Shown: positions 8,056 to 28,866 of the stretch, piece after piece | How positions within the stretch are numbered: the stretch's first letter is position 1 | Layout: each line of letters starts with the position of its first letter | Assembly: GCA_028869135.1 (NCBI GenBank) | Contig: JAGWTC010000020.1 | Coordinates: forward strand, 1 to 43,309 | DNA: 43,309 nucleotides | Direction: 5' to 3' | From: Rhodocyclaceae bacterium | GTDB lineage: Bacteria; Pseudomonadota; Gammaproteobacteria; Burkholderiales; Rhodocyclaceae | The notes under the pieces: generated by a model | What the model was told of the DNA's origin: nothing | The model's input: only the letters and a program-made list of their open reading frames with translations | The model's database searches: none | Made by a program: the position numbers and the translations under genes

Positions 8056-10869
<2,814 letters not shown>

Positions 10870-10987
10870 CAAAGATTACGCTGACCGTCCGGCTGGCGAT
10901 TCACCAGCCCGGCTGTCATGCTGCACCGGGCGTGGATGCGTCCGGATTGGTGTCACAAGTCTTGTGCGCTCCAATGAAGGAAACAAA

Positions 10988-12106
10988 ATGAAGTCATCCA
11001 GCCGCTTCGCGACGCGACGCGCCCTGCTCAAATCCGTTCCGGGCGCATTTCTTCTCGGTTCGCTTCCCGCCTCTGTTTTCGCCCAGCCGTCCGACAAGCG
11101 CACGTTCGTGCCGCAGCCAGGCAACTGGCGCACCTTCGAAGTCAGCACCCGCATTGATTTGACGAAGGCCGGCCCGTCCACCGTGGTCGTGCCCATTCCG
11201 TCCGTATCGACCGACTGGCAACGCTCCTTCAGCAGCAACTGGGCGGGCAATGCAAAGTCGGCGCATATCGAAACCGATCCGCACTACGGCGCACAGTATG
11301 TCGTCGCCACTTTCGATGGTTCGGCGCCGCCGATGCTCGAAGTCACCAGTCTGGTCAAGACGCAGAATCGCGCCACCGACTGGTCGAAGCCGACATCCGC
11401 ACTGCCGGCGGAAGACCTGCGCCTGTGGCTGAAGCCCACCGACCTGATGCCGCTGGACGGCATCGTCAAGGTCACCGCGCGCCAGATCACCGAAGGCGCC
11501 AGGACCGATATCGAGAAGGTCAAACGCATCTACGATTGGGTCATCGTCACCACCTACCGCGAGCCCAAGGTCCGCGGTTGCGGCGTCGGCGACGTCAAGG
11601 CCATGCTCGAGAACAAGTCTTTCGGCGGCAAGTGCGGCGACATCAACGGCCTCTTCGTCGCGCTGTGTCGCGCCGCCGGCGTGCCGGCGCGCGATGCCTA
11701 TGGCATACGCCTCGCGCCGAGCGCTTTCGGCTACGCGCAACTCGGCGGCAAGTCCGCCAGCCTGACCGGCGCACAGCATTGCCGCGCCGAGGTTTGGCTG
11801 AAAGGCTACGGCTGGGTGCCGATGGATCCGGCCGACGTCGGCAAGGTCATGCGCATGGAAACCGGCGAGTGGATCAAGGACGCCGATCACCCGCTGGTGG
11901 CGCCGGTGCGCAAGGGGCTGTTCGGCGGCTGGGAAGGCAACTGGATGGCCTACAACTTCGCCCACGATGTGAAGTTGCCCGCCAAGGCGCTCGGCAAGGT
12001 CGCCTTCCTCATGTATCCGCAGGCCGAAACCCGCGGTGAGGCCTACGACTCGCTCGCCGCGGACGACTTCAAGTACAGCATCAGCGCAAGGGAAATTCCG
12101 GCCTGA
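10988..12106 (+). CDS. Tat-signal transglutaminase-like cysteine protease-fold protein
   Basis: Encodes 372 residues. The N-terminus has RFATRRALLKSVPGAFLLG, resembling a twin-arginine signal with a hydrophobic stretch and an AQP cleavage site. The C-terminal half is a transglutaminase core domain. The nucleophile Cys is in FGGKCGDINGLFVALCRAAG, the His in the QHCRAEVWLKG block, and the Asp in VPMDPADVG, so the Cys-His-Asp triad is intact. The N-terminal ~150 residues look like the beta-sandwich usually found in front of such domains. Ribosome site AAGGA lies before the ATG. It may be co-transcribed with the MerT-like gene 47 bases downstream. The substrate is unknown; peptide or amide cleavage in the periplasm is the usual inference. 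Confidence 0.8.
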   Translation: MKSSSRFATRRALLKSVPGAFLLGSLPASVFAQPSDKRTFVPQPGNWRTFEVSTRIDLTKAGPSTVVVPIPSVSTDWQRSFSSNWAGNAKSAHIETDPHYGAQYVVATFDGSAPPMLEVTSLVKTQNRATDWSKPTSALPAEDLRLWLKPTDLMPLDGIVKVTARQITEGARTDIEKVKRIYDWVIVTTYREPKVRGCGVGDVKAMLENKSFGGKCGDINGLFVALCRAAGVPARDAYGIRLAPSAFGYAQLGGKSASLTGAQHCRAEVWLKGYGWVPMDPADVGKVMRMETGEWIKDADHPLVAPVRKGLFGGWEGNWMAYNFAHDVKLPAKALGKVAFLMYPQAETRGEAYDSLAADDFKYSISAREIPA

Positions 12107-12153
12107 CCGGCTATGCGGGTGGGCAGCGGCGCTGCTCACCCTTCTCCGCAATC

Positions 12154-12537
12154 ATGGATACACAGACCTCTTCCCCCCCGCCGCAAAAGCGACTCAGTCT
12201 CGGCCTGATGACGGTGGCCGTGCTGTCGTCCATCGTCGCCTCGACCTGTTGCGTGGTGCCGCTGATCCTCGTGCTGGTGGGCATTACCGGCGCCTGGATG
12301 GTCAATCTTCAGGCGCTGAAGCCCTATGTTGTCCTCTTCACCGTCATCGCGCTGGCCGCGCTTGGATGGGCGGGCTATCTGGTGTTTCGTCCACAGCGCT
12401 CAAGCGGTGCCTGCTCTGCGGAAGAAACGAAATGCGCTACCGTTGCCTGCCGTTCGACGCGGAAAGCATTTATCCTGAGTGCCGTGTTCATTGCCGCGCT
12501 GCTACTCTTTCCCTTCGCCGCGCCGCTGTTTTATTGA
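12154..12537 (+). CDS. merT: MerT-family mercuric ion transport protein
   Basis: Inner-membrane protein of the MerT family, which receives Hg(II) from MerP and moves it inward. The 127 residues contain three hydrophobic segments (about 18-38, 46-75, 103-125). The first membrane segment carries the diagnostic vicinal cysteines SIVASTCCVVPL (C32, C33), and a second Cys cluster is in the cytoplasmic loop (GACSAEETKCATVAC). MerP follows after 7 bases. No merR, merA or operator is visible, so a role in mercury resistance is not assured; transport of another thiophilic metal is possible. Confidence 0.85.
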   Translation: MDTQTSSPPPQKRLSLGLMTVAVLSSIVASTCCVVPLILVLVGITGAWMVNLQALKPYVVLFTVIALAALGWAGYLVFRPQRSSGACSAEETKCATVACRSTRKAFILSAVFIAALLLFPFAAPLFY

Positions 12538-12544
12538 GGACATC

Positions 12545-12823
12545 ATGAAGAAGCCGATTTTCCTGTTCGCACTTTGCCTCGGCCTGTCGACGTTTGCCAA
12601 TGCGGCAACGCAGAAGGCCGTGCTCAACGTTCCGACCATGGATTGCGAAACCTGTCCGCTGACGATCAAGGCGGCCCTGCTCAAGGTGCCGGGCGTCTCC
12701 AGCGCCAGGGTCAGTTACAAGAAGCGTGAAGCCATTGTGGAATACGACGACACCAGAACCAGCCTAGCCGAGCTGAAAAAAGCCACCGCAGATGTCGGCT
12801 ATCCATCGCTACTGCAGGACTGA
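12545..12823 (+). CDS. merP: MerP-like periplasmic heavy-metal-binding protein
   Basis: Periplasmic metal-binding partner of MerT. The 92 residues comprise a Sec signal peptide (cleavage near ANA-AT, residue 20) and one HMA/ferredoxin-like domain with the metal-binding motif TMDCETC (C34, C37), followed by SSARVSYKKREAIVEYD typical of the fold. It starts 7 bases after the merT stop, so the two form an operon. The left inverted repeat of the mobile island begins 17 bases after its stop. Confidence 0.87.
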   Translation: MKKPIFLFALCLGLSTFANAATQKAVLNVPTMDCETCPLTIKAALLKVPGVSSARVSYKKREAIVEYDDTRTSLAELKKATADVGYPSLLQD

Positions 12824-12839
12824 GATGCTCGCTTCAAAC

Positions 12840-12856
12840 ACCCAACAAAAAAGCTC
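12840..12856 (+). repeat. Left terminal inverted repeat of the island
   Basis: ACCCAACAAAAAAGCTC, perfectly inverted relative to 19614-19630. A looser resemblance continues inward (TTATTACC...AACGG here against TTATACC...AACGG at the other end, read inward). Confidence 0.75.
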
Positions 12857-12880
12857 CCGATGGTTATTACCCCCAAACGG

Positions 12881-12889
12881 GAATACATC
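12881..12889 (+). repeat. Left subterminal copy of GAATACATC
   Basis: The 9-mer GAATACATC recurs inverted at 19499-19507 near the right end, with a partial third copy at 19509-19517. It is short, so chance cannot be excluded, but its inverted placement inside both ends fits a recombinase- or accessory-protein-binding motif. Confidence 0.4.
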
Positions 12890-12921
12890 GTAAGCGGCTT
12901 TAGGCTGTAATTTTTATTGAA

Positions 12922-12947
12922 CACCCCTCTCGTAGGGGTGATTTTTT
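12922..12947 (+). terminator. Rho-independent terminator near the island's left end
   Basis: CACCCCT-CTCGT-AGGGGTG followed directly by ATTTTTT: a 7-bp GC-rich stem and U-run in the + direction. It could insulate the island from merTP transcription entering from the left. The rest of 12857-13080 shows no gene. Confidence 0.75.
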
Positions 12948-13027
12948 GCCTTCGTCGTAACAAAGCTATTCCATAATTTAACATTGCATGTAGAATCAAT
13001 GTGGTGATGCATAGGAGTGCAGGTGGG

Positions 13028-13062
13028 GTCGAGTAGCAGGCTTTCTTTGAAAGTCGAGTAGC
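13028..13062 (+). repeat. Direct repeat GTCGAGTAGC x2 in the island's leader
   Basis: GTCGAGTAGC at 13028-13037 and again at 13053-13062, start-to-start 25 bases, with a small inverted repeat CTTTC-TTT-GAAAG between. The copies lie on the same helix face order of spacing (about 2.4 turns), just upstream of the relic and gmtY. Could be an operator or accessory recombinase site; function not shown. Confidence 0.45.
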
Positions 13063-13080
13063 TTGAGCGGAGGGTGCGAA

Positions 13081-13380
13081 GTGTCAAGAGTCGAGGAAAC
13101 CGAACTACGACGATGGCGCGCCTTGCCGGCCAATGAACTGCTGATGCGGATCGCTACATTTGCCAAGCGTGATGGAACCTTCGAGCCCTTCAAGAGCAAG
13201 GTTACTGAGCGGTGGCATGCGAACGTAGAGGGCCGTGAGTACTAGTTGGTTACCGATGGCCCTAAGTTTTTTGATACTCGTGCTGGGCACGGTGGTGGAG
13301 GTGCAGTGGATTTGGTTATGCATATCCACCACCTCGACTTCAAGGCAGCGACCGCTTTATTGCGTCGCTTGGGGGTTTAG
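13081..13380 (+). pseudogene. Relic of a plasmid/ICE-type primase-like zinc-finger/toprim N-terminal domain, split by TAG
   Basis: A GTG at 13081, with GGAGGG placed 7 bases before it, opens a frame of 54 codons to a TAG at 13243-13245. The same frame then continues for 44 more codons to 13380. Across the stop the sequence reads coherently: ...ERWHANVEGREY-stop-LVTDGPKFFDTRAGHGGGG then AVDLVMHIHHLDFKAATALL. The WH.NV.GREY, GPKFFDTR and GGGGAVDLVMH blocks resemble the N-terminal domain of CHC2/toprim-type primase-like proteins of conjugative elements, from memory. No catalytic toprim or helicase part follows; gmtY starts 8 bases after the second stop. Most likely a remnant captured at the element's left end, less likely a short functional accessory protein. 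Confidence 0.55.
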
Positions 13381-13388
13381 GTGATGGA

Positions 13389-14789
13389 ATGTTTGTGACC
13401 GTAAAGGCCCGCGTCTACACCGATGCCTCGGGCGTCTACACAGAGATTCCCGCCTTGCTGACGCCGGCCGGTGTCCTGGAGCCGCTTCTCGACTATTGCC
13501 TGTATCGCAGCCACGACCGCAGCCTAGTCTGGATGTTGAAGGTGACCCGCTCGGTCCGGATGTTTCTTGAATACCTTCAAACCAACCCCGCCGAGCGCGA
13601 CACCTACCGTCTGTTCCAGAACTTCGCCCAGCGGCTCTACACCGGAACCTTCGACCGCGAGACGGGACTCGACCCTTGCGGCCTGTGCTGGGCGCCGCGC
13701 TCGCCACAAGACGCCGGCCACATCATTACCCACCTGACCGATTTCTTCGATTGGCTCGGCGAGATGCGCCCCGAGGCGGCGAAGGTTAATCCCCGCTATG
13801 CGGGAGGCGCCTTTGACCGGCAGGCCGACGAGGCTGCCTACCAGTACCGGCGCAATAAGGCTTTCCTTGGCCACACATGGGCCACGAACGCCTCTCCCAC
13901 CGATTCCGGACACCGCGTGCGTGGACGACTCTTACCCAAGGTCGAGAAGGGAGAGCCCCCTGCCTTCCCGGAGGAGCGCTTCGAGGAATTGCTGGTCAAG
14001 GGGTTCCGCGCAGCAGGGCGCCAGGACTATCGCGGCATGCTCATTACCTTGCTGCTGCATGGCGCGGGCTTCCGTGAATCGGAGCCCTTCCATCTTTACA
14101 TCCACGACGTCCTTCCAGACCCCGCCAATCCTCGTCAGGCATTGGTCCGCATCCACCACCCGAGCTACGGTGCCGCTCCCTACGATTGGCGTGACGAGCG
14201 GGGACGGCCTCGCAAGGGCAGCCGGGCGGAATACCTTGCTCAGCAGTTCGGCTTCGTGCCTCGCACGGAACTTATGGACAGCCGGCGTGCCGGCTGGAAA
14301 GGCGGGATGCACGACGGCCCCTTCTACAAGCAGGCGTACTGGTTTCTGCCAGAGTATGGCGAGTGGTTCTTGCACCTGTGGCACCGCTACCTGGAGCAGG
14401 TCGCGCGCATCGACCGTGACCATCCCTTCGCGTTCATCAACCTGAGCCGCGAGCCGGCCGGTAGGATGTACTGCCTTGGCCAGTACAACAAGGCCCATGC
14501 CGCTGCATGCGAACGTATCGGTCTTATTGTGAGCAAGGCGCTAGGTACGACCCCACACGGTCACCGCCATGCCTATGGTCGACGGCTCAAGAAGGCAGGC
14601 GTCGATAAGGCGCTCATTCGCCGCTTCATGCACCACGCCTCGCCCGAAAGCCAGGAGGTCTACACCCAGCCGAACACCCGTGAGGCGCTGGAGGCGCTGG
14701 AGGCCGCGGCGCAACGGCTACGTACCACACATGCCTTGGCGCCGTCCTCCTCCGGGCTGTTGCTCCCAAATGTCGAATATAACGACTGA
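13389..14789 (+). CDS. gmtY: Tyrosine recombinase of Gamma-Mobile-Trio type (GmtY-like)
   Basis: Site-specific recombinase, first gene of a three-gene operon. In its 466 residues the tyrosine-recombinase catalytic set can be placed: Arg229 in HGAGFRESEPFHLY (box I), His390-x-x-Arg393 in TTPHGHRHAYGRRL, His416 in RRFMHHASPE, and nucleophile Tyr425 in SQEVYTQP. All are present, so it should be active. The N-terminal ~200 residues would be the arm- and core-binding region (MLKVTRSVRMFLEYL). The order, sizes and strand of this gene and the next two match the GmtY-GmtZ-GmtX signature of Gamma-Mobile-Trio islands, recalled from family knowledge and not searched. A Tn554-TnpA-like protein is the main alternative label. 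Confidence 0.82.
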   Translation: MFVTVKARVYTDASGVYTEIPALLTPAGVLEPLLDYCLYRSHDRSLVWMLKVTRSVRMFLEYLQTNPAERDTYRLFQNFAQRLYTGTFDRETGLDPCGLCWAPRSPQDAGHIITHLTDFFDWLGEMRPEAAKVNPRYAGGAFDRQADEAAYQYRRNKAFLGHTWATNASPTDSGHRVRGRLLPKVEKGEPPAFPEERFEELLVKGFRAAGRQDYRGMLITLLLHGAGFRESEPFHLYIHDVLPDPANPRQALVRIHHPSYGAAPYDWRDERGRPRKGSRAEYLAQQFGFVPRTELMDSRRAGWKGGMHDGPFYKQAYWFLPEYGEWFLHLWHRYLEQVARIDRDHPFAFINLSREPAGRMYCLGQYNKAHAAACERIGLIVSKALGTTPHGHRHAYGRRLKKAGVDKALIRRFMHHASPESQEVYTQPNTREALEALEAAAQRLRTTHALAPSSSGLLLPNVEYND

Positions 14790-14798
14790 GAATTCGTC

Positions 14799-17396
14799 AT
14801 GACCAAAAAGAAGAAAGCGTCTCTGTCCGTAACCTCTACGCTTCTGGCGAGAAGGAAGAAAGGGATTAAACGCAATACGGACACGTCCCTCGGCTGGGTC
14901 GCGCGGGAGTATCCGCAGCTCGAATCCTGGCGGAACCTGGCGGAGGAGTGGCTGAAAGGCGAAACACGCGGGCTCGGCGACAGGCTCAAGGCCTTGGTGG
15001 TCTTCTTAGAGCGATACCTCGTCCAGCAGGACCTACCGTTCGAACCGGCGGTGTTCCTGGCGTACACCACTGTCCTGCCTGATTTCTACCGGACGGCGTG
15101 CCCTGATTCGGCGAACGGCATCAAATATAACAACTACATCCACGCCTTCCTGCATTTTGTGCTTCTGCGCGAATTCAGCAAAGCCGCCGACAATGGCCAT
15201 CCGGTGGTCTCGCCGGCCTTTCACAACCCTGTGCCCCGGATGCTCAAGAGCGGCCTGCCCCGGCGCGACGAGAGCGTGCATTCTCCGATTCCCTACGGCT
15301 ACATCGACGAACTGCGCCAGATGCTGGCGGCGGGGCCGCACTTCCGCGACTGGCAATGGGCGCAGAGTGCGCTAGGCTCCGGGAACGGCCAGCGAAAGCG
15401 TGGTGCGCCCGACTGGTTCGAGGTAACCGAAGACCAGATTGACCGAAATGACCCGGACTGCGTGTGGCGCCAGCGCCAGATGGCGAAAGGGATGCGCCTG
15501 GAAATGTGGAGTCCGGTACGTTGGGTCGCGCTGCTGGTAAAGCTCATCTTGCCGCTACGTACCTTCCAGGTTCGCATGCTCGACTCGGGCGAAGCGGATA
15601 CTTGGCGTTACGCAGACGGCGACTGGGCGTTGAACCCGGGGCGGCTCGCTCAAGGAAGCGAGCGGCACCCCTTGCAACAGGGCGTGTTTCGACGCAGCGC
15701 CCCGCTCGCCGATGGCGAGGCAGTCTCGACCGTGCTCTACATCAATACCAACAAGACCGCGGACATCGCCAAGGCTGGTCCTGAGAAGGGTTACGTCCTG
15801 CCGTGGTTCTCCGGCGGACCGGTGCATCAGGATGTCCTTTATTGGCTAGAGAAGCTGCGCAATTGGCAGGAGAAGTACAACCCCATCCCTCGGCGCACGT
15901 CGTGGATGGAACTGGATGGCCGGCATATCAATGCGAAGAGCGACGTGCAGCTCGCGGGCTATCTCGACACCTGTTTCCTCTTTAGGATGCCGGAAATACA
16001 TGATGGCGAGCGTCATCTCCCCCTATCGGATAGACCGATGTTCTCATGCTGGTTTCGATTGCTAGAAGCCCTGGAACTGCGGCTGGCCGACCGGGGTAGA
16101 ACCCATCGGAACGGCACCCCGATTCGCTTCCTTCCGCCGCTGGAAGAGCAGAACTGTGGCCAGACGACGCTGTTTCCTTTGCACAGCCTGCGCGTCTCCC
16201 TCATCACCGCGCTGGCGCTTGAAGGCCAGGTGCCATTCCCCGTGCTGCAAAAGCTCGTCGGCCACAGCCGACTGTTGATGACGCTCTACTACACCAAGCC
16301 CGGCGCAACACATATACGCGACGTACTGCTCGGCGCCGCCGAGCGACTGGAGGCGGCCAAGGAAGCGAGCATCCAGAACTTCCTGCTGGACACCGAGCAT
16401 GGGACGCTCCTCGAACAGGCTATCTGCAACAGCGTGCCCTCTCTCGCTGCTGCCATTCCGCAGCATCCGGCGGCGCGCAACCCGGTGGGCTGGATGCCGA
16501 TGCACCACGGCCTGTGTCTTGTTGGCGGTAACACCAGCGAGGCCGAGGAAAACGGCGCTGTGGGTGGCTGCTACAACGGAGGCCCAAACCTTGGCTCTGC
16601 GTCAAGCCCCAAGAACGAGCCCGTGCCAGGCGGAAGCCGCAACTGCGTGCGTTGCCGCTGGTTCGTGACCGCGCCGCATCACCTGCCGGCACTGGCCGCC
16701 CACTTCAACACGCTCGCCTACCATTTCGACGAGGCGCGCAATGCCTGCCTCGCCCGAGAAAACGACCTCCAGGCCCTAAAGAAGGACAAAGCGGACGCCG
16801 AAGAGGCCGGTCACCCCTTCGCCCGGATGGATGCCTACCGGCAGGCTGAGCGGGTGTGGGAGAGCGCGATGAAACGCTTTAGCGACCTGGCTGAAGACCT
16901 GGTGGCCTGCTGGCGTCTCATCGAACGCTGTAAGGCGGCGCTTGATGCAAGCAATGGCGACGGCACTAAATTGGTGGCTGCCGGCACCGTCTGCGACGTG
17001 CAGGCCGTCTTCGAGGAAACCGAGTCGGAGCTGCTGCAACTCGCTGGCGTGTGCGAAAACGTCGAGTTCTATCCTGACTTGGAGCCGGGCAAGGCGGTGT
17101 TTCGCCGCAGCCAGCTGCTTGATGCCGTCCTCTACCGTGACGATGTGCCGCCCGTGTTCATGCTGCTAAGTGAAGGCGAGCAGCTGCGCGTCGGTAACGC
17201 TTTCATGCGCCAGCTCGCTATGCAAATGAATCCGCAGAACCCAGCACTTGGGCAACGCGAAGTGATTCGCCTGATGGACGCGGGTGTTCGCCTCAGCGAG
17301 TACTTTGGCCTGGACCTAGCCTCGCTGGTGCCCGCGTCCAATCGTGCACAAGCGTTCCCGCTCGGGCGCCAGACCCTTCTTGGGAGTTATGAATGA
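14799..17396 (+). CDS. gmtZ: Large recombinase-like trio protein (GmtZ/VPA1269-like)
   Basis: Encodes 865 residues, starting 9 bases after gmtY. A tyrosine-recombinase core is visible in the middle: Arg254 in LILPLRTFQVRMLD, His462-x-x-Arg465 in PLHSLRVSLITALAL, Gly488-His489 and Tyr498 in LVGHSRLLMTLYYTKP. Both trio proteins therefore keep the catalytic residues. The C-terminal ~300 residues are an extension with a likely zinc pair (C616-x-x-C619 in GGSRNCVRCRWFVTAP) and a long helical stretch (HFDEARNACLARENDLQAL). This CxxCRWF block followed by helices fits the VPA1269/GmtZ family; TnpB of Tn554 has a comparable role. Its stop overlaps the gmtX ATG by four bases. Confidence 0.8.
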   Translation: MTKKKKASLSVTSTLLARRKKGIKRNTDTSLGWVAREYPQLESWRNLAEEWLKGETRGLGDRLKALVVFLERYLVQQDLPFEPAVFLAYTTVLPDFYRTACPDSANGIKYNNYIHAFLHFVLLREFSKAADNGHPVVSPAFHNPVPRMLKSGLPRRDESVHSPIPYGYIDELRQMLAAGPHFRDWQWAQSALGSGNGQRKRGAPDWFEVTEDQIDRNDPDCVWRQRQMAKGMRLEMWSPVRWVALLVKLILPLRTFQVRMLDSGEADTWRYADGDWALNPGRLAQGSERHPLQQGVFRRSAPLADGEAVSTVLYINTNKTADIAKAGPEKGYVLPWFSGGPVHQDVLYWLEKLRNWQEKYNPIPRRTSWMELDGRHINAKSDVQLAGYLDTCFLFRMPEIHDGERHLPLSDRPMFSCWFRLLEALELRLADRGRTHRNGTPIRFLPPLEEQNCGQTTLFPLHSLRVSLITALALEGQVPFPVLQKLVGHSRLLMTLYYTKPGATHIRDVLLGAAERLEAAKEASIQNFLLDTEHGTLLEQAICNSVPSLAAAIPQHPAARNPVGWMPMHHGLCLVGGNTSEAEENGAVGGCYNGGPNLGSASSPKNEPVPGGSRNCVRCRWFVTAPHHLPALAAHFNTLAYHFDEARNACLARENDLQALKKDKADAEEAGHPFARMDAYRQAERVWESAMKRFSDLAEDLVACWRLIERCKAALDASNGDGTKLVAAGTVCDVQAVFEETESELLQLAGVCENVEFYPDLEPGKAVFRRSQLLDAVLYRDDVPPVFMLLSEGEQLRVGNAFMRQLAMQMNPQNPALGQREVIRLMDAGVRLSEYFGLDLASLVPASNRAQAFPLGRQTLLGSYE

Positions 17397-18055
17397 ATAG
17401 TAGAACGGACATCCACCCAGACACGGTACTGGAGTCGCTGCTTGCCAAGGCCGAGCGCTCGAACCGCCGGAACAATCTCACCAATATGCACGAGCTTTGC
17501 CGCAAGCAACATGAAGCGGGTTCGCGTGACTTCTCTCTGTCGGCTATCGGCCGCTTGGTCGAGGCCGAAGGCATCATGAAAGGCCGTGCCCTCTACAATG
17601 CCCAGTCTGTCGACTACAAAGCGCTCATCGAAGCCTGGGCAGCCTACGCTGGGCCGCCTGCCCTCAAGCCAACGAAGACACTGGCGAGCCATGATTACCT
17701 GATGCGCATCGATGACCCCGCCATCCGCTCCATCATGCAGGCCGTCACCGCCGAGCGGGACAAGCTCAAGGCGCAGATCAACATGCTCAAGGCCAACACA
17801 CAGGTGACCGTGGACCGACGCCCGCTGGGGGCCACCGTTTCGGCTACTCCCGGAACGCAGCCGGTGACCGTGCTTGCGCTGTCCGCACAGTTGACTCCGT
17901 CCGAACGCGAAGCCTTGCAGAAGGCGGTTTCCCCCGACTACCTGGAAGAACGTGGTCTGCGGGAAGGCAGCCACGGCGAAATCATTAACGAGCGCGGCCG
18001 GACGGTGTTCGAGGTCGGCTTCGCACGAGCTATTCGCAAGGTACTGGGAGACTGA
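17393..18055 (+). CDS. gmtX: Third trio protein (GmtX-like)
   Basis: Encodes 220 residues and overlaps gmtZ by ATGA, so it is translationally coupled. The N-terminal ~80 residues look like a helical DNA-binding region (MHELCRKQHEAGSRDFSLSAI followed by GRLVEAEGI). A helical segment follows at about 115-145 (IMQAVTAERDKLKAQINML), probably a coiled coil. The C-terminus ends in ERGRTVFEVGFARAIRKVLG. No catalytic motif is seen. By position, size and coupling it corresponds to GmtX or, in function, to TnpC of Tn554-like trios: a small partner of the two recombinases. Its exact role is unknown. Confidence 0.75.
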   Translation: MNSRTDIHPDTVLESLLAKAERSNRRNNLTNMHELCRKQHEAGSRDFSLSAIGRLVEAEGIMKGRALYNAQSVDYKALIEAWAAYAGPPALKPTKTLASHDYLMRIDDPAIRSIMQAVTAERDKLKAQINMLKANTQVTVDRRPLGATVSATPGTQPVTVLALSAQLTPSEREALQKAVSPDYLEERGLREGSHGEIINERGRTVFEVGFARAIRKVLGD

Positions 18056-18280
18056 AGCGGTGACAGTTGCCTCACGGCAAGTGCGGGGCTGCTGGGGCTG
18101 CAATCGGCCAGGAGCGGCCGGTCATCAAGCGCTCCGGATAGCGGCCACCCCGGCGGGAGGATATGCTATACGCCTGTGCCCGGAATCGATCAGACCACAC
18201 ACCATGCCAGCTGCTGCTTTACCTGCGTTGTTATCTTGCCTTGCGCGATATTTCTTATTCTAAACAGGAGGTTGCAGAAC

Positions 18281-18337
18281 ATGTTATCCGACATCCCGAT
18301 GTTATGCGGCAGAACTGTCGCCCTAAAACAAAGTTAG
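18281..18337 (+). CDS. 18-residue leader ORF inside the attI-like site
   Basis: AGGAGG (18266-18271) lies 9 bases before an ATG that opens MLSDIPMLCGRTVALKQS, ending at a TAG that is itself part of the attI core GTTAG. Class 1 integrons carry a comparable short ORF in attI1 (ORF-11) that boosts translation of the first cassette. Here the frame, ribosome site and stop position suggest the same use. No independent peptide function is implied. Confidence 0.4.
   Translation: MLSDIPMLCGRTVALKQS
18298..18337 (+). other. attI: attI1-like integron recombination site
   Basis: GATGTTATGCGGCAG at 18298, followed by GTCGCCCTAAAACAAAGTTAG ending at 18337, agrees at about 35 of 40 positions with the class 1 integron attI1 3' region as I remember it. 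The core GTTAG sits exactly at the junction with the first cassette (GTTAGATGCC). No integrase gene lies between gmtX and this site (18056-18297), nor anywhere else in the window. That 240-bp spacer otherwise holds no gene I can support. Confidence 0.75.
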
Positions 18338-18447
18338 ATGCCAGATTTGGCGTTGCGTATGCTCACAGAAAATCGACAGCCGCAAGACTGTTTTTGGCAA
18401 CTCATAGCCACTACTATTTCTCCTTCATACCGTAGAGGAGATTGCAC

Positions 18448-18780
18448 GTGAAGAACTGGCTCTTTCTGGCTATTGCAATATTTGGTGAGGTCGTCGCAAC
18501 TTCCGCACTGAAGTCCAGCCATGGATTCACCAAGTTAGTTCCTTCTGTTGTAGTTGTGGCTGGCTACGGGCTTGCGTTCTATTTCCTCTCTCTCGCACTC
18601 AAGTCCATCCCGGTCGGCATTGCTTATGCTGTTTGGGCTGGCCTCGGCATCGTACTTGTGGCAGCTATCGCTTGGATCTTCCATGGCCAGAAACTAGACT
18701 TGTGGGCGTTCGTTGGCATGGGACTTATCGTTAGTGGCGTCGCCGTTCTAAATCTGCTATCCAAGGTCAGCGCACATTGA
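18448..18780 (+). CDS. Small multidrug resistance efflux protein (QacF/QacH-like), integron cassette gene
   Basis: Four-helix SMR transporter exporting quaternary ammonium compounds and other lipophilic cations in exchange for protons. It has 110 residues, the normal SMR length. Family marks: essential Glu14 in [14 protein letters not shown], the [19 protein letters not shown] block, [11 protein letters not shown], and [16 protein letters not shown]. The C-terminus [15 protein letters not shown] resembles cassette-borne QacF/QacH rather than QacE. I chose the GTG start because GAGGAG lies 7 bases upstream; a TTG two codons earlier is also open. It is the first cassette after the attI-like site and is followed at once by its attC. 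Confidence 0.9.
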
Positions 18781-18790
18781 TCGGGCTGGC

Positions 18791-18850
18791 ATCTAACAAT
18801 TCATTCAAGCCGACGCCGCTTCGCGGCGCGGCTTAATTCAGGTGTTATGC
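18791..18850 (+). other. attC site of the SMR cassette
   Basis: Sixty bases running from the outer core ATCTAAC (18791-18797, fits RYYYAAC) to GTTATGC (18844-18850, fits GTTRRRY). Inner inverted blocks CAAGCCGACGCCGC and GCGGCGCGGCTTAA form the typical imperfect hairpin. This is a classical 59-base-element in size and layout. Confidence 0.92.
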
Positions 18851-18859
18851 GGTGAAGGT

Positions 18860-19297
18860 ATGAACCTCATCAGTGAAATCAGGAGTTCATGGGGTTGGAT
18901 TGGAATTGAACCCGAAGAGATCGTTGGAGAGAACGATTTCGGTAATCTCATGATCCGGGATGTCGAAGGCAAATATTGGCGTCTTTGCCCAGAGGACGTC
19001 TATTGCAAAGTCGTGGCCGGAAATCGAAAAGAACTTGACGCCTTAGCAACAAATCAAGAATTTCTCGCTGATTGGCACATGGAAGCCTTGGTGGCTCAAG
19101 CTAAGCAAGCTCTCGGCCCGCTTCCGGAAGGTAGGAAGTACCATCTGGTAATCCCAGGAGCTCTAGGGGGCGAGTACGCGATTTCGAACATCAAGACCGC
19201 TCCACTCGTCGAGCTGGTTCGGTTATCCGGTGATATAGGGCGCCAGATTAAGGACCTTCCGGACGGTGCGCAGATCGAACTCAAGGTGGTCGAATGA
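18860..19297 (+). CDS. Tdi1/DUF1851-like T6SS immunity protein, integron cassette gene
   Basis: Encodes 145 residues. The C-terminal half (HLVIPGALGGEYAISNIKTA, then VRLSGDIGRQIKDLPDGAQI) matches the DUF1851/Tdi1 immunity domain pattern as I know it; the N-terminal half is GAD-like (DVEGKYWRLCPEDVYCKVV). Such proteins neutralise type VI DNase effectors. No effector or T6SS gene is nearby, so it would be an orphan immunity gene. It starts 10 bases after the preceding attC and ends 11 bases before its own attC, the compact layout of a gene cassette. Confidence 0.72.
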   Translation: MNLISEIRSSWGWIGIEPEEIVGENDFGNLMIRDVEGKYWRLCPEDVYCKVVAGNRKELDALATNQEFLADWHMEALVAQAKQALGPLPEGRKYHLVIPGALGGEYAISNIKTAPLVELVRLSGDIGRQIKDLPDGAQIELKVVE

Positions 19298-19307
19298 CAC
19301 ACAATTG

Positions 19308-19376
19308 GCATAACACGTCGCTCCAGCCGACGTCAGGCCGCGACGCGGCCTTCCTCGGCTGAGCTTGGCGTTGAAT
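19308..19376 (+). other. attC site of the second cassette
   Basis: Sixty-nine bases from GCATAAC (19308-19314) to GTTGAAT (19370-19376), with complementary inner arms (CAGCCGACG against TCGGCTGAG, GGCCGCG against CGCGGCC). Layout and spacing fit an attC. It is the last one in the array; nothing cassette-like follows. Confidence 0.85.
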
Positions 19377-19469
19377 GACAGCTTTCCCAAAAGCTCTACG
19401 GCTGCTCTGGGTCGGTTTTAGACCCTGCCTTACACCCCAATTATTTGAACAAGTCTACGCAGCAATGAA

Positions 19470-19495
19470 AAGGGCCGGAGTTTCCTCCGGCCCTT
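19470..19495. terminator. Strong 11-bp hairpin near the island's right end
   Basis: AAGGGCCGGAG-TTTC-CTCCGGCCCTT is a perfect 11-bp stem with a 4-base loop. It could terminate cassette transcription, although only a weak U-run follows, or be a structured recombination end. Confidence 0.55.
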
Positions 19496-19498
19496 AAA

Positions 19499-19528
19499 GA
19501 TGTATTCGGATGTATTTATACATACATC
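19499..19528. repeat. Right subterminal repeat cluster
   Basis: GATGTATTC (19499-19507) and GATGTATTT (19509-19517) in direct order, then the inverted ATACATC (19522-19528). The first is the complement of the left subterminal GAATACATC at 12881-12889. Confidence 0.5.
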
Positions 19529-19613
19529 GCCACAGCGTACGAAACGCCTTACTGAAAAGGTAACTGTCTGCTCAGTTGTATAACAATGTGCCGTTAAGGT
19601 ATAAGTCCCGAGA

Positions 19614-19630
19614 GAGCTTTTTTGTTGGGT
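19614..19630 (-). repeat. Right terminal inverted repeat of the island
   Basis: GAGCTTTTTTGTTGGGT, the exact complement of 12840-12856. It is not a terminator of the minus-strand gene that ends at 19645, since no hairpin precedes the U-run in that direction. Confidence 0.75.
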
Positions 19631-19644
19631 CGGCATATGCACCG

Positions 19645-19998
19645 TCACTTCTTGATCGGCTGCGGCACCTTCTCCGAATTTGCCGGCAATGCCGGCGCAG
19701 TCGCCGCGCCGGCAGGGGCGATGGATGGCGGCACCGGCGGCGAATACACGAAGGGGCCGGGGTCCTCGCATTTGGCGAGGCTGGCGTCCATGGCAGGCTT
19801 TTTCTGCTCCCTGCGGAAGCGCTCCGCTGTCCGGTCCTGCGACTTGCAGAGCTGATAGGCCGCGGTTTTGTCGCTCCAGGCCGCCTTGGCTTTCGCCTCG
19901 TCGGCCTTGGCCTTGGCTTCATCGCTCGGCGGCGGCAGTTTGGCGAAGGTTGCAGTGCTGAAAAGCAGTGCGAGGCAGAGACTGAGTTTCTTCATCAT
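19645..19998 (-). CDS. Small exported protein at the end of the FDH3 operon, function unknown
   Basis: About 117 residues with a Sec signal peptide (MMKKLSLCLALLFSTATFA). Next comes a charged helical stretch of repeats (DEAKAKADEAKAKAAW), two Cys (AYQLCKSQDR, DASLAKCEDPG), and a Pro/Ala-rich tail (PPVPPSIAPAG). GGAGG lies just before two adjacent ATGs (19998 and 19995); the second has the better spacing. It begins 12 bases after the stop of the preceding lipoprotein gene, so it is the last gene of the formate dehydrogenase operon. No known family recognised; a periplasmic accessory role is only suggested by position. Confidence 0.7.
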   Translation of the reverse strand: MMKKLSLCLALLFSTATFAKLPPPSDEAKAKADEAKAKAAWSDKTAAYQLCKSQDRTAERFRREQKKPAMDASLAKCEDPGPFVYSPPVPPSIAPAGAATAPALPANSEKVPQPIKK

Positions 19999-20009
19999 GT
20001 TTCCTCCGC

Positions 20010-20228
20010 TCAATTGACGCGCTTGTATTCGTTCTGGTTCTGGGCTCGACCGCGGATATCGTTTTCCCACTTGGCCTTGTCGCCGTTCCAGGGCGGGCCG
20101 TCATACGGTCGCGCATCCGTCTTGCCGTGATATTCGCCCTGCTTGTAGACGACCGTCTGCGGATACTCGCCGCAGGCGGTCAGCGCAAACGCGGCCAGCG
20201 CCGCGCACAGCATGGATTTCGTGAACAT
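20010..20228 (-). CDS. Small lipoprotein coupled to FDH3 beta subunit
   Basis: Encodes 72 residues with a lipoprotein signal peptide ending in the lipobox LTAC (Cys about residue 19). The short mature part is Tyr-, Lys- and Asn-rich (YKQGEYHGKTDARPYDG, PPWNGDKAKWEND). Its ATG overlaps the stop of the FDH3 beta-subunit gene (ATGA), which indicates translational coupling and membership in that operon. I do not recognise the family. It may tether or assist the periplasmic FDH complex. Confidence 0.75.
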   Translation of the reverse strand: MFTKSMLCAALAAFALTACGEYPQTVVYKQGEYHGKTDARPYDGPPWNGDKAKWENDIRGRAQNQNEYKRVN

Positions 20229-20890
20229 CACTTGCCCTCCTTCTTTTCCTGGGGCTTGCCGGCCTGCTCGCGCTTCTGTTCGCGTTCGCGATCCTGCTTC
20301 ATCTCGCCCTTGCCGTAGGCGGTGCTCCAACCCCACAGTTCGCCGCCCTTGCCGCGCGTCAGGGAACGCTGGCGGAAAATGTCCGCCACAACGTCGGCAT
20401 CGCCGGCCAGCAGCGCCTTGGTCGAGCACATTTCGGCGCACAACGGCAGCTTGCCTTCGGCAAGACGATTGCGCCCGTACTTCTCGAACTCCTCCTGCGA
20501 ATTGTCGGGCTCGGGGCCGCCGGCGCAGAAGGTGCACTTGTCCATCTTGCCGCGCTGGCCGAAGGCGCCATTCTGCGGATATTGCGGCGCGCCGAAGGGG
20601 CAGGCATAGAAGCAGTAGCCGCAACCGATGCACAGATCCTTGTCGTGCAGCACCACACCCTCCTCGGTATGGTAGAAGCAGTCGACCGGGCACACCGCCA
20701 TGCAGGGCGCGTCGGTGCAGTGCATGCAGGCGACTGAGACCGACTTCTCGCCGGGTTGGCCGTCACCCATCGTGACGACGCGACGCCGGTTGATGCCCCA
20801 GGGCACCTCGTGCTCGTTCTTGCAGGCCGTGACGCAGCCGTTGCACTCGATGCAACGTTCGGAGTCACACAGGAATTTCATGCGGGCCAT
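20228..20890 (-). CDS. fdhB: Formate dehydrogenase FDH3 beta (iron-sulfur) subunit
   Basis: Electron-transfer subunit with four [4Fe-4S] clusters linking the catalytic subunit to the cytochrome b subunit. Visible Cys blocks: CIECNGCVTACKNEH, CMHCTDAPCMAVCPVDC, CIGCGYCFYACPFGAPQ, and CTFC with a later C. The 220 residues have a strongly basic, Gln/Lys-rich tail (EQKREQAGKPQEKKEGK) and no C-terminal membrane helix, unlike FdnH, which is typical of FDH3-type beta subunits. It begins 24 bases after the alpha-subunit gene. Confidence 0.93.
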   Translation of the reverse strand: MARMKFLCDSERCIECNGCVTACKNEHEVPWGINRRRVVTMGDGQPGEKSVSVACMHCTDAPCMAVCPVDCFYHTEEGVVLHDKDLCIGCGYCFYACPFGAPQYPQNGAFGQRGKMDKCTFCAGGPEPDNSQEEFEKYGRNRLAEGKLPLCAEMCSTKALLAGDADVVADIFRQRSLTRGKGGELWGWSTAYGKGEMKQDREREQKREQAGKPQEKKEGK

Positions 20891-20914
20891 GATGTCTCTC
20901 CTCGATTCTTCTCG

Positions 20915-23806
20915 TTATGCCTTGACGATCTGGCAGATGGTCGTCTTGGTTTCCTGCATCATCGTCACGCTGTCGTAGCCGTAGGTCGTGGCGGTATTGA
21001 CCGCCTCGCCGCGCACGATGGGATGCGCGCCCTCGGGGTAGTACTTCAGCATGTCCTCGCCCATCCAGTGGCCGGAAAAGTGGAAGGGCATGAAGCAGGT
21101 ATCTGTGCCGACACGCTCCGTCACCTGCGCGCGCACCTTGAGCTGCGCGCCGGTAGGCGTCTTCAGCCAGACCCAGTCGTTGTTGCGTATGCCGCGATCG
21201 TTGGCGACCCGCGGGTTCATTTCCACGAAGGCCTCCTGCTGCAGTTCGGCCAGCCACGGGTTGGAACGGGTTTCCTCGCCGCCGCCCTCGTACTCGACCA
21301 GTCGGCCCGAGGTCAGAATCAGCGGGAACTTCTCCGCCAGCTTGTCCTCGACGTTCTTCTGCTGCAAGGTCTTGTACAGCGTCGGCAGACGCCAGAAGGC
21401 CTTCTTGTCGTCGTGGGTCGGATACTTGGCAACGAGGTCGGGGCGGGTGGAATACAACGGTTCGCGGTGCAGGGGCACCGGATCCGGGAAGTTCCACACC
21501 AGCGCGCGCGCCTTGGCATTGCCGAAGGGATAGCAACCGTGGTTCTTCATGACCACGCGGATGATGCCGCCCGACTGGTCGGTCTTCCAGTTCTTGCCTT
21601 CGGCCTTGGCTTTTTCCTCATCGGTCAGCTCATCCCACCAGCCCAGCTTCTTCAGCAGCACATGATCGAACTCGGGGTAGCCGAACTGCATGTCGGCGCC
21701 CTTGGAGGCCGAGCCGTCGCCGGCGAGCAGATTCACACCGTCGCGCTCGACGCCGAAGTTGGCGCGGAAGTTGCCGCCGCCGTCCATGACGTGCTTGCTG
21801 GTGTCATAGAGGTTGGGCGAACCCGGGTGCTTCATCTCCGGCGTGCCCCAGCACGGCCACGGCAGGCCGAAGTAGTCACCGTCGCAAGGTCCCCCCTTGG
21901 CGCGCAGCGTCTTCACATCGAAGGTATGCATGTTCTTCATGTGCAGCTTGAGACGCTCGGGCGACTGGCCGCTGTAGCCTATGGTCCAGGTGCCCTTGTT
22001 GATTTCGCGCAGAGTGTCCTCCATGCTCGGCTCGTCGTTGGTCACCTTGATGTTCCTGGTGAGCTCCTTCTCGAAGCCGAAGACGCGCGCCAACTGGTAC
22101 ATGATGACGTGATCCGGGCGCGACTCGAACAGCGGCTTGATCACCGGCTCGCGCCATTGCAGGGAACGGTTCGACGCCGTGCAGGAACCCTCGGTCTCAA
22201 ACTGCGTCGAGGCCGGCAGCAAATACACGCCGTCCTTGCGCACCATGGCCGCCATCGCTGCGGTCGCGGACGGGTACGGGTCGATCACGACTAGGGTGTC
22301 GAGCGCCTTCATGGCCTCGACCATCTCCTTGCCGCGCGTCTGCGAGTTCGGCGCCATGCCCCAGTAAACAACAGCCTTCAGGTTCTGATCCTGGTCGATG
22401 TTTTCGTTCTTTTCGAGGACGCCGTCGATCCAGCGCGAAACGGTGATGCCCGGCTTGGTCATCATCGCGTCGGAGGCATACTGCTTTCGGATCCACTCGT
22501 AATCGACGCCCCACACCGACGCCCAGTGCTTCCAGGCGCCCGGCGCGACGCCGTAGTAGCCCGGCAGCGAGTCCGGATTCGGGCCGATGTCGGTCGCACC
22601 CTGCACATTGTCGTGGCCGCGGAAGATGTTGGCGCCGCCGCCCGACACGCCGATATTGCCCAGCGACAGTTGCAGGATGCAGAAGGCGCGCACCATCGCA
22701 TTGCCGATGCTGTGCTGGGTCTGGCCCATGCACCAGACGATGGTGCTGGGGCGGTTCTTGGCCATGGTCTCGGCGACCTTGTAGAGCTCGGCCTCGCTGA
22801 CGCCGCTGGCCTCCTGCACCTTGTCCGGCGTCCAGGTCATGACTTCGGCGCGCACCTTGTCCATGCCGTAGACGCGGTCCTCGATGTACTTCTTGTCTTC
22901 CCAGCCGTTCTTGAAGACGTGGTAGAGAATGCCCCAGATCACGGCGATGTCGCTGCCGGAACGGAAGCGCACATACTGGTCGGCCTTGGCCGCGGTGCGC
23001 GTGAAGCGCGGATCGGCGACGATCATCTTGGCGCCGCTTTCCTTGGCATGCAGGATGTGCATCATGGCGACCGGATGCGCCTCGGCGGCATTCGAGCCCA
23101 TGAACAGCATGGCCTTCGAATTCTGCATGTCGTTGTAGGAGTTGGTCATCGCGCCGTAACCCCAGGTGTTGGCAACGCCGGCAACCGTGGTTGCGTGGCA
23201 GACGCGCGCCTGGTGGTCGCAGTTGTTGGTGCCGAAGAAGGACACGAACTTGCGCAGCAGATAGGACTGCTCGTTGTTGTGCTTGGAGGAGCCGATCCAG
23301 TACACCGAATCCGGTCCGAAATCCTTGCGCAGCTTGAGCAGGCGGTCGCCGACCTCCTTGTAGGCCTGATCCCAGCTGATGCGGACGTACTTGCCGTCGA
23401 CCAGCTTCATCGGATACTTGAGGCGCATGTCGCCGTGGCCGTGCTCGCGTACCGAAGCTCCCTTGGCGCAGTGCGAGCCCAGGTTGATCGGCGAATCGAA
23501 GACCGGCTCCTGGCCGATCCAGACGCCGTTCTTCACTTCGGCGTCGATGGCGCAACCGACCGAGCAGTGCGTGCAGACGCTGCGCTTGATCTCGACCTTG
23601 CCCTCGGCAGGCGCTTCATCCTTGGCGTCAGCCGTGCCGATGAGATTGAAGGGCAGTTGCGAGGCGAATGCGCCCGCGCCGGCAACCATGCCGGAACGTT
23701 TCATGAATGCGCGCCGATCCAGCGCCTCGGGCAGGAGGCCGTCGAGCATGCCGGATGCCTTGCTCTGCGCCGCCGGCTGGTGATGGGATGTTTTTCTGGT
23801 CAACAT
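20915..23806 (-). CDS. fdhA: Formate dehydrogenase FDH3 catalytic alpha subunit (Cys type)
   Basis: Mo- or W-bis-MGD enzyme oxidising formate to CO2 on the periplasmic side. The 963 residues start with a Tat signal (LDRRAFMKRSGMVAGAG). The [4Fe-4S] motif is CTHCSVGC with a later Cys in LGSHCAKGAS. The metal-ligand position is Cys203 in HQARVCHATTVAGVAN, where the FdnG-type enzyme in this window has selenocysteine. The C-terminal molydopterin-dinucleotide-binding domain contains LILTSGRLVEY. This enzyme can therefore be made without selenium, while the other formate dehydrogenase here cannot. Confidence 0.95.
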   Translation of the reverse strand: MLTRKTSHHQPAAQSKASGMLDGLLPEALDRRAFMKRSGMVAGAGAFASQLPFNLIGTADAKDEAPAEGKVEIKRSVCTHCSVGCAIDAEVKNGVWIGQEPVFDSPINLGSHCAKGASVREHGHGDMRLKYPMKLVDGKYVRISWDQAYKEVGDRLLKLRKDFGPDSVYWIGSSKHNNEQSYLLRKFVSFFGTNNCDHQARVCHATTVAGVANTWGYGAMTNSYNDMQNSKAMLFMGSNAAEAHPVAMMHILHAKESGAKMIVADPRFTRTAAKADQYVRFRSGSDIAVIWGILYHVFKNGWEDKKYIEDRVYGMDKVRAEVMTWTPDKVQEASGVSEAELYKVAETMAKNRPSTIVWCMGQTQHSIGNAMVRAFCILQLSLGNIGVSGGGANIFRGHDNVQGATDIGPNPDSLPGYYGVAPGAWKHWASVWGVDYEWIRKQYASDAMMTKPGITVSRWIDGVLEKNENIDQDQNLKAVVYWGMAPNSQTRGKEMVEAMKALDTLVVIDPYPSATAAMAAMVRKDGVYLLPASTQFETEGSCTASNRSLQWREPVIKPLFESRPDHVIMYQLARVFGFEKELTRNIKVTNDEPSMEDTLREINKGTWTIGYSGQSPERLKLHMKNMHTFDVKTLRAKGGPCDGDYFGLPWPCWGTPEMKHPGSPNLYDTSKHVMDGGGNFRANFGVERDGVNLLAGDGSASKGADMQFGYPEFDHVLLKKLGWWDELTDEEKAKAEGKNWKTDQSGGIIRVVMKNHGCYPFGNAKARALVWNFPDPVPLHREPLYSTRPDLVAKYPTHDDKKAFWRLPTLYKTLQQKNVEDKLAEKFPLILTSGRLVEYEGGGEETRSNPWLAELQQEAFVEMNPRVANDRGIRNNDWVWLKTPTGAQLKVRAQVTERVGTDTCFMPFHFSGHWMGEDMLKYYPEGAHPIVRGEAVNTATTYGYDSVTMMQETKTTICQIVKA

Positions 23807-28770: not shown

Positions 28771-28866
28771 TGGCGGAAGGAAGAGGGAGTCGAACCCACC
28801 TGGCGACGCATGGCGCCGCCAACCGGGTTTGAAGCCCGGCCGCCCCACCAGGGACGAATTCCTTCC
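28771..28866 (-). tRNA. selC: tRNA-Sec (anticodon UCA)
   Basis: On the minus strand the 96-nt sequence runs from GGAAGGAATTCGTCC to TTCCTTCCGCCA. It has an 8-bp acceptor stem (GGAAGGAA/TTCCTTCC), discriminator G, and encoded CCA. The anticodon stem-loop is CCGGGCTTCAAACCCGG with anticodon TCA. The long variable arm and T arm GTGGGTTCGACTCCC are also present. The long acceptor and large extra arm are specific to selenocysteine tRNA. It begins 4 bases after the selB stop and reads UGA in the fdnG-type gene nearby. Confidence 0.95.

Follow-up and report, generated by a model that had tools for sequence, protein, structure and literature searches.

Integron mobilization units and MITE-flanked integrons are examples of integron material that is mobile without full machinery of its own, and recombinase trios behave in a Tn554-like manner. 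Integron cassettes also occur as CALINs (clusters of attC sites lacking an integrase); one account of the routes by which these may arise includes cassette insertion through an integrase at another location and the loss of intI (PMC8618304), and it also cites a paper on MITE-flanked integrons. Two papers hold that a Tn402-type transposon took up an ancestral class 1 integron from a chromosome, and the passages that describe this capture give no molecular step for it (PMC5460862, PMC8618304). For chromosomal class 1 integrons of environmental Burkholderiales, PMC5460862 names the accessions EU316185 and EU327987-EU327991.

The window, which is the whole stretch of 43,309 nucleotides analysed here (G000:C51:1-43309), is part of a 2.82-Mb Rhodocyclaceae genome in 63 contigs, and contains a gamma-mobile-trio (GMT) element with an integron array as cargo (Table 1). 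Like a CALIN, the array has two attC-bearing cassettes and no adjacent intI; unlike a CALIN, it keeps an attI1-like site, has defined ends, and is the cargo of a recombinase-trio element. It shares an attI1-type site, a qac-family cassette, the tail, and ends of the same kind with the Tn402 class 1 integron of R751, but it has no intI1, no Tn402 inverted repeats were found in the window, and no tni genes stand beside the unit. Tn402-like units of plasmids AP025276 and LC623925 have a 99.6% identical leader, the same ends, and no intI; however, they lie between Tn402 inverted repeats with tniR and resistance cassettes, whereas the window copy lies in a GMT element. Other GMT elements likewise contain gmtY-gmtZ-gmtX, cargo 3' of gmtX, and a conserved right end, but the cargo in the window is an integrase-less integron unit, the leader of which was seen in no other of 14 GMT loci. 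Integron mobilization units and MITE-flanked integrons differ in their carrier, which is a tyrosine-recombinase trio in the window, where no MITE-like copies were noticed at the flanks. Among the matches listed from the openly licensed literature (title and start of the abstract), no description of the unit or its ends was found; in the passages concerned, pYKBR041 is given with aac(6')-31 and without an integron label (PMC9499019), and pN260-3 is named merely as a relative (PMC10469963).

We consider it quite probable that the cargo slot of a gmtY-gmtZ-gmtX element is occupied at 18105-19414 by an integrase-less integron unit, which the element likely carries along and which is likely loaded with cassettes in trans. 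From left to right, the unit would comprise a 233-bp leader that ends in the attI1-like site, then the qacL cassette, the Tdi1-type immunity cassette, and a tail of the Tn402 type. The earlier note on this DNA, which described the attI1-like site and the cassettes, did not recognise that the array fills a cargo slot as a unit with defined limits, and that ends of this kind also flank class 1 integrons and other cargo in Tn402.

Table 1. Features of the GMT element and its cargo unit (positions in the window)
Feature	Position	Strand	Basis or remark
Candidate left end of GMT element	12840..12856	.	17-bp arm, inverted repeat at 19614-19630, split-terminator-like
gmtY, tyrosine recombinase of trio	13389..14789	+	NF040693, 529.4 bits, cut-off 340
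gmtZ, integrase-family protein of trio	14799..17396	+	NF047926, 1010.7 bits, cut-off 600
gmtX, small third trio protein	17393..18055	+	NF040692, 236.7 bits, cut-off 40
GMT flank left of cargo unit	18056..18104	+	Common to L076 except for two gaps and two mismatches; ends GGGCTGCAAT
Left end of cargo unit	18105..18119	+	CGGCCAGGAGCGGCC; breakpoint common to L076
Leader ending in attI1-like site	18105..18337	+	233 bp from CGGCCA; comparison with L009-L020
attI1-like site	18298..18337	+	Crossover G^TTAG at 18333/18334
Cassette 1	18334..18844	+	qacL-type efflux gene 18448-18780, attC1 18791-18850
Cassette 2	18845..19370	+	Tdi1-type T6SS immunity gene, attC2 19308-19376
Post-cassette tail	19370..19414	+	45 bp, ends in GGGTCG (19409-19414); Tn402 R751 tail
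GMT right flank and right end	19415..19630	+	Terminator, GATGTAT/ATACATC repeats; other GMT elements have a similar end

The carrier element

All three trio genes (13389-18055) exceeded curated cut-offs, and the right end after the cargo was similar to that of other GMT elements, which agrees with the placement of the array inside a trio element by the earlier note. The same note had gmtX standing where the integrase would be expected; however, gmtX reads towards attI, whereas intI1 of R751 is divergent, and gmtX is the normal last gene of a trio. Positions ~19457-19630 strongly matched the post-cargo region of Cupriavidus L036 (E=3e-7) and weakly matched those of Pseudomonas L034, Aeromonas L031/L032, and Delftia L035 (E=0.002-0.023), and the same comparison gave no match after the unit of Cupriavidus L033. 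Clear alignments of the right end were also obtained with G265 (L076) and G191 (L077). The right end in Delftia L035 directly follows gmtX; this element is therefore without cargo. The inverted 17-bp pair at 12840-12856 and 19614-19630 probably represents the outer ends of the GMT element, the recombinases of which are predicted to move the whole element, cargo unit included, so that it likely carries the unit along.

Split palindromes with an A/T run were observed at the flanks of the GMT elements in the window (17 bp), Delftia L035 (13 bp), and L076 (11 bp), and were not found in L031, L034, and L077. Such palindromes, which include a T-run in L035 and L076, suggest insertion into intrinsic terminators, and GMT elements may thus insert at such sites. 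A second, divergent GMT trio is located on contig C12 of the same genome (L066 3650-8395), with proteins 42-47% identical and without the unit ends. Upstream (5') of gmtY, at ~13080-13380, short frames resemble by eye a primase zinc-finger gene that is disrupted and contains an in-frame stop. The minus strand of the window also harbored a selenocysteine tRNA and a SECIS element (28775-28866 and 37317-37375; Rfam), which probably belong with a selenocysteine formate dehydrogenase operon.

Leader, attI1-like site, cassettes and integrases

The similarity to class 1 attI1 claimed by the earlier note was borne out: 18297-18345 was 89.8% identical over 49 bp to plasmid class 1 attI1 regions (E=2e-8; the last 8 bases are cassette), and the site was 87% identical over 39 bp to attI1 of R751. 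The core G^TTAG at 18333-18337 closes the block, and the attI expected of a complete integron is thus present, as judged by its sequence. The note was also right about the two attC-bearing cassettes that follow. The ORF at 18448-18780 encodes a QacL-type SMR pump (NF000067, 227 bits, cut-off 205), and its attC1 belongs to a cassette of known kind, with 18095-18850 being 94.8% identical to AP025276. The ORF at 18842-19297 (first ATG 18860) matched PF08906, T6SS_Tdi1_C (66.8 bits, cut-off 27.4), and is followed by attC2, which folds as an attC-like bottom-strand hairpin with R''/R' core complementarity by eye. With two attC sites, judged by similarity and folding, and no intI, the array has the composition of a CALIN (at least two attC without intI). 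A Tdi1-type immunity protein was also observed in the cargo of a Cupriavidus GMT element (L036 11569-12192; 26.9 bits, Pfam cut-off 27.4). A sigma-70 scan of the unit, leader included, gave no promoter against 1.3 expected by chance; cassette expression is therefore unexplained, which counts against the trans-loaded cargo unit as the best explanation.

The absence of intI beside the array, as the earlier note reported, was confirmed by tblastn and blastn of 18001-18345. The tblastn search with IntI1 and the genome's own IntI returned at best 13 residues (E=1.9), and blastn with the R751 region from IRi to attI1 recovered attI1 (E=1.4e-9) and otherwise nothing better than 22 bp (E=0.057). The locus therefore contains neither the intI beside attI of a complete integron nor the intI1 of a class 1 integron. 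The only full integron integrase of the genome is encoded on contig C2, and the attI there is unrelated to that of the window. This chromosomal integron (L008 2480-5139) comprises a full intI and three similar attC-like repeats, and stands between a uracil-DNA-glycosylase-like gene and rarA/serS (repeats and neighbours by eye). It was rejected as a source, with no similarity to C2 found for 10001-21000 of the window (E<=0.01) or for the leader (E<=0.1). Its integrase is of a different type, so that no source of an integrase acting in trans was found, which counts against the preferred explanation.

The leader was 99.6% identical to those of L009 (plasmid AP025276), L010 (plasmid LC623925), and L016 (Thauera propionica), and 91-92% identical to those of L014, L015, L019, and L020, which come from a Tepidiphilus MAG, T. 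phenolivorans, Diaphorobacter caeni, and a betaproteobacterial MAG. NZ_AP023450 (L011) contained 188 bp of the leader, beginning beside IS26. No trio gene was hit in the stretches examined of L009-L020; Tn402-type inverted repeats flank L009 and L010 on either side, tniR is present in both, and what looks by eye like 5-bp target duplications (CTACG and CCTTT) was seen. The genome's own IntI gave no tblastn hit in L009, L010, L011, L016, L018, L019, and L020, and weak tyrosine recombinase hits near the leaders of L012, L015, and L017; the latter recombinases scored best as XerC/XerD- or invertase-like proteins and fell well short of the cut-off for integron integrases. The L014 unit contains an integron-integrase-like frame, of which a scanned 250-residue piece reached 157 against 265 bits, below the family cut-off.

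The leader query matched 9 of 399 genomes of the order. Five of these, the present genome included, had an attI1-like site without an IntI hit in the stretch examined, three had intI1, and one was a chance-like match in coding sequence; the four besides the present genome (L058, L062, L063, and L064) have more distant versions of the leader, and several of the leader-bearing stretches without such a hit are short or stop at a contig edge. The matches in the class sample (3/369 genomes) were the present genome, G128 again, and G677 (28 bp). No match to the leader was found in a near-match search of E. coli genomes, and neither the leader pattern nor the unit-boundary pattern was hit in viral contigs. 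A coding role of the leader, which overlaps an ORF at 18163-18435, was set aside because gaps in L012 and L017 would break the frame.

After the core, the first 300 nt fell into eight mutually unrelated sequences among nine leaders (eight full and the partial L011; L018, the same strain as L009, was dropped from the counts), and the same first cassette was found only in the window and L009. These differing first cassettes join the leader at one point, G^TTA, which fits loading in trans at attI. Cassettes would thereby enter attI by IntI1-type recombination, with the integrase supplied in trans. This origin, one of two offered by the earlier note, is plausible in view of the single joining point; the action in trans itself is what we infer.

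Shared unit ends in GMT and Tn402-like elements

The unit 18105-19414 (CGGCCAGGAGCGGCC...GGGTCG) stands between gmtX and the right end of the element, and its ends form an imperfect inverted pair (left CGGCCANNAGCNGYC, right GRCNGCNNNGGGTCG). In L076 of G265, the gmtX DNA of which is 90% identical, the flank is alike up to CGGCCA except for two gaps and two mismatches, and the two loci are alike again from GGGTCG into the GMT right end. Between CGGCCA and GGGTCG no similarity was detected (blastn E<=0.01); in L076 this interval spans 6.5 kb and includes regulators of the LacI and LysR types as well as an amidohydrolase-like ORF (by eye from translations). Similar ends (CGGCTAG..., ...GGGTCG) enclose other genes in G191 (L077). 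Cupriavidus L033 and L036 are alike for ~300 bp past gmtX and diverge at CGGCCA; both units terminate in GGGTCG followed by GCTGCGG, after which the GMT right end stands only in L036. Overall, unit ends were present in 5 of 14 GMT loci, with the near-identical Aeromonas elements L031 and L032 both counted. Of the nine loci in which gmtX identity was 79% or more, one of them devoid of cargo, five had these ends, whereas none of the five distant loci did. GMT elements of Aeromonas (two loci) and P. syringae contain cargo without the unit ends.

Tn402-like elements contained ends of the same kind. The sequence from IRi through CGGCCA(T) is identical over 101-102 bp in R751 (intI1), L014 (attI module), and L085 (pLBC62, with opmE and ABC efflux genes as cargo), and then differs; left-end motifs of this kind occur at the breakpoints of R751, L014, L084, and L085. 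On the other side, GGGTCG directly followed by ACACCGG stands before tniR in R751, L009, L010, L011, L039, pLBC62 (L083), and LC623933 (L084), before a resolvase-like ORF (by eye) in L014, and also after the ampC unit of L037. The class 3 integron of LC623933 has CGGCCAGGAGCGGCC at the matching place and intI3 at the opposite end; this integron (L084 768-6050) is inverted in a Tn402-like transposon and has ends of the class 1 kind. Between such ends, Tn402-like elements thus hold integrons of class 1 and, in one case, of class 3, as well as an efflux operon and an integrase-less module. Over 48 bp, the tail of the window shared 97.9% identity with the R751 tail, and a query containing it matched 146 plasmid records. 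Of the features of a class 1 integron, attI1 and the Tn402-type post-cassette tail are both present. A pattern scan found no IRi/IRt inverted repeats in the window, which does not place the window element in the Tn402 family. Tail followed by leader or left end, a tandem arrangement, was found in Thauera pTha01, T. propionica, and Sphingobium WTD-1. Tandem units of leader, gene, and tail were observed at L012 700-3230 (Thauera pTha01) and L016 680-330; the L012 leaders precede single genes, one of them an HNH endonuclease, and their attI is decayed or missing by eye.

Left ends and reverse-complemented right ends agreed at a mean of 9.4 of 15 positions (16 units, 14 distinct end pairs), a score that is biased upward because the units were partly picked by motif. 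The shuffled-letter control had a mean of 4.6/15, and the highest of 2,000 shuffles was 6.0. The pattern common to left ends and reversed right ends is CGRCCMNNAGCNGYC. Inspection of the unit ends by eye revealed no target duplication. The left-end motif was rejected as an abundant genome repeat, with 18 sites in 2.82 Mb versus 13 for the reversed control; a genome scan with the right-end pattern gave 2 sites versus 5 for the control, and this pattern missed the unit itself.

Identical breakpoints with different content in one carrier were thus found on both sides for the window versus L076, and on both sides for R751 versus L014 versus L085 (right side from L083). For L033 versus L036 they were found on the left side together with like right ends, L033 being without the GMT right end. 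At the level of sequence, these comparisons show a bounded unit whose place is taken by other units, between one pair of breakpoints, in each of two unrelated carriers.

Origin of the unit and implications

The earlier note gave, as one of its two options, a trio element that captured a complete integron and deleted intI in that event. Absence of intI and the position of attI next to the last trio gene agree with such a deletion, but a 99.6% identical integrase-less leader occurs where the stretches examined gave no trio hit (L009, L010, and L016), so that acquisition of the array by the trio is not supported as the step at which intI disappeared. In addition, the GMT flank breaks exactly where the sister element holds other cargo, and an intI remnant, which the note had named as a pseudogene to be sought in 18056-18297, was looked for there and not found. 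Deletion at capture is thus largely refuted already, and we regard it as very improbable. A neighbouring intI may instead have been lost after each cassette loading, although the same clean loss would then be needed many times.

Two further explanations concern the shared ends. The block of leader, cassettes, and tail could have spread by homologous recombination between existing copies, with the ends being the limits of common sequence; homologous exchange in the leader (233 bp) and tail (48 bp) would allow such copies to trade cassettes. However, this leaves the first arrival in GMT or Tn402 elements unaccounted for, and the efflux operon of L085, the G265 cargo, and the class 3 integron share only short ends, and we rate such a spread as unlikely. 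Alternatively, the ends might mark a hot spot, fragile or structured, where DNA is readily broken and joined, rather than the borders of a mobile unit. Their shortness and palindrome-like form, the lack of visible target duplications, and the fact that no enzyme was found agree with a hot spot. On the other hand, the two ends recur together in two unrelated transposons, where their spacing and orientation stay fixed, new left ends come after tails in Thauera and Sphingobium, and the left motif is not abundant in the genome (18 sites against 13 for the reversed control); a hot spot is accordingly rated as rather improbable.

Under the preferred explanation, an integrase-less integron unit in a GMT cargo slot, the whole unit is predicted to swap between transposons at its imperfect inverted ends via a putative recombinase or transposase. 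Several observations weigh against this explanation: no target duplication was visible at the unit ends, no enzyme for the exchange was found, the end-matching score is biased upward, the ends occur in only 5 of 14 GMT loci, some GMT elements hold cargo without them, L033 shows no GMT right end, and an integron-integrase-like frame lies in the L014 unit. From the same breakpoints with different cargo in both carriers, it seems that transposons of two unrelated families exchange cargo at a common interface, with the core of the class 1 integron as one such cargo. A broader proposal is put forward tentatively, as possible but somewhat doubtful: integron cores (class 1 and 3), integrase-less attI modules, efflux operons, and immunity genes may all be carried by mobile cargo units of a single class, as yet undescribed, that have short inverted ends (CGRCCMNNAGCNGYC). 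A dedicated putative enzyme would move these units between elements of the Tn402 family (DDE) and GMT elements (tyrosine-recombinase), and the class 1 integron may have entered Tn402 in this way.

The breakpoints of class 1 capture coincide with those of other Tn402 cargo and of the cargo of an unrelated recombinase trio, and class 1 capture thereby becomes a testable event with defined ends. These results also suggest that an attI site can remain in use while the integrase is elsewhere, in which case intI-based searches would miss such arrays. Three of the integrase-less arrays found are on plasmids, two of them with blaIMP-1.
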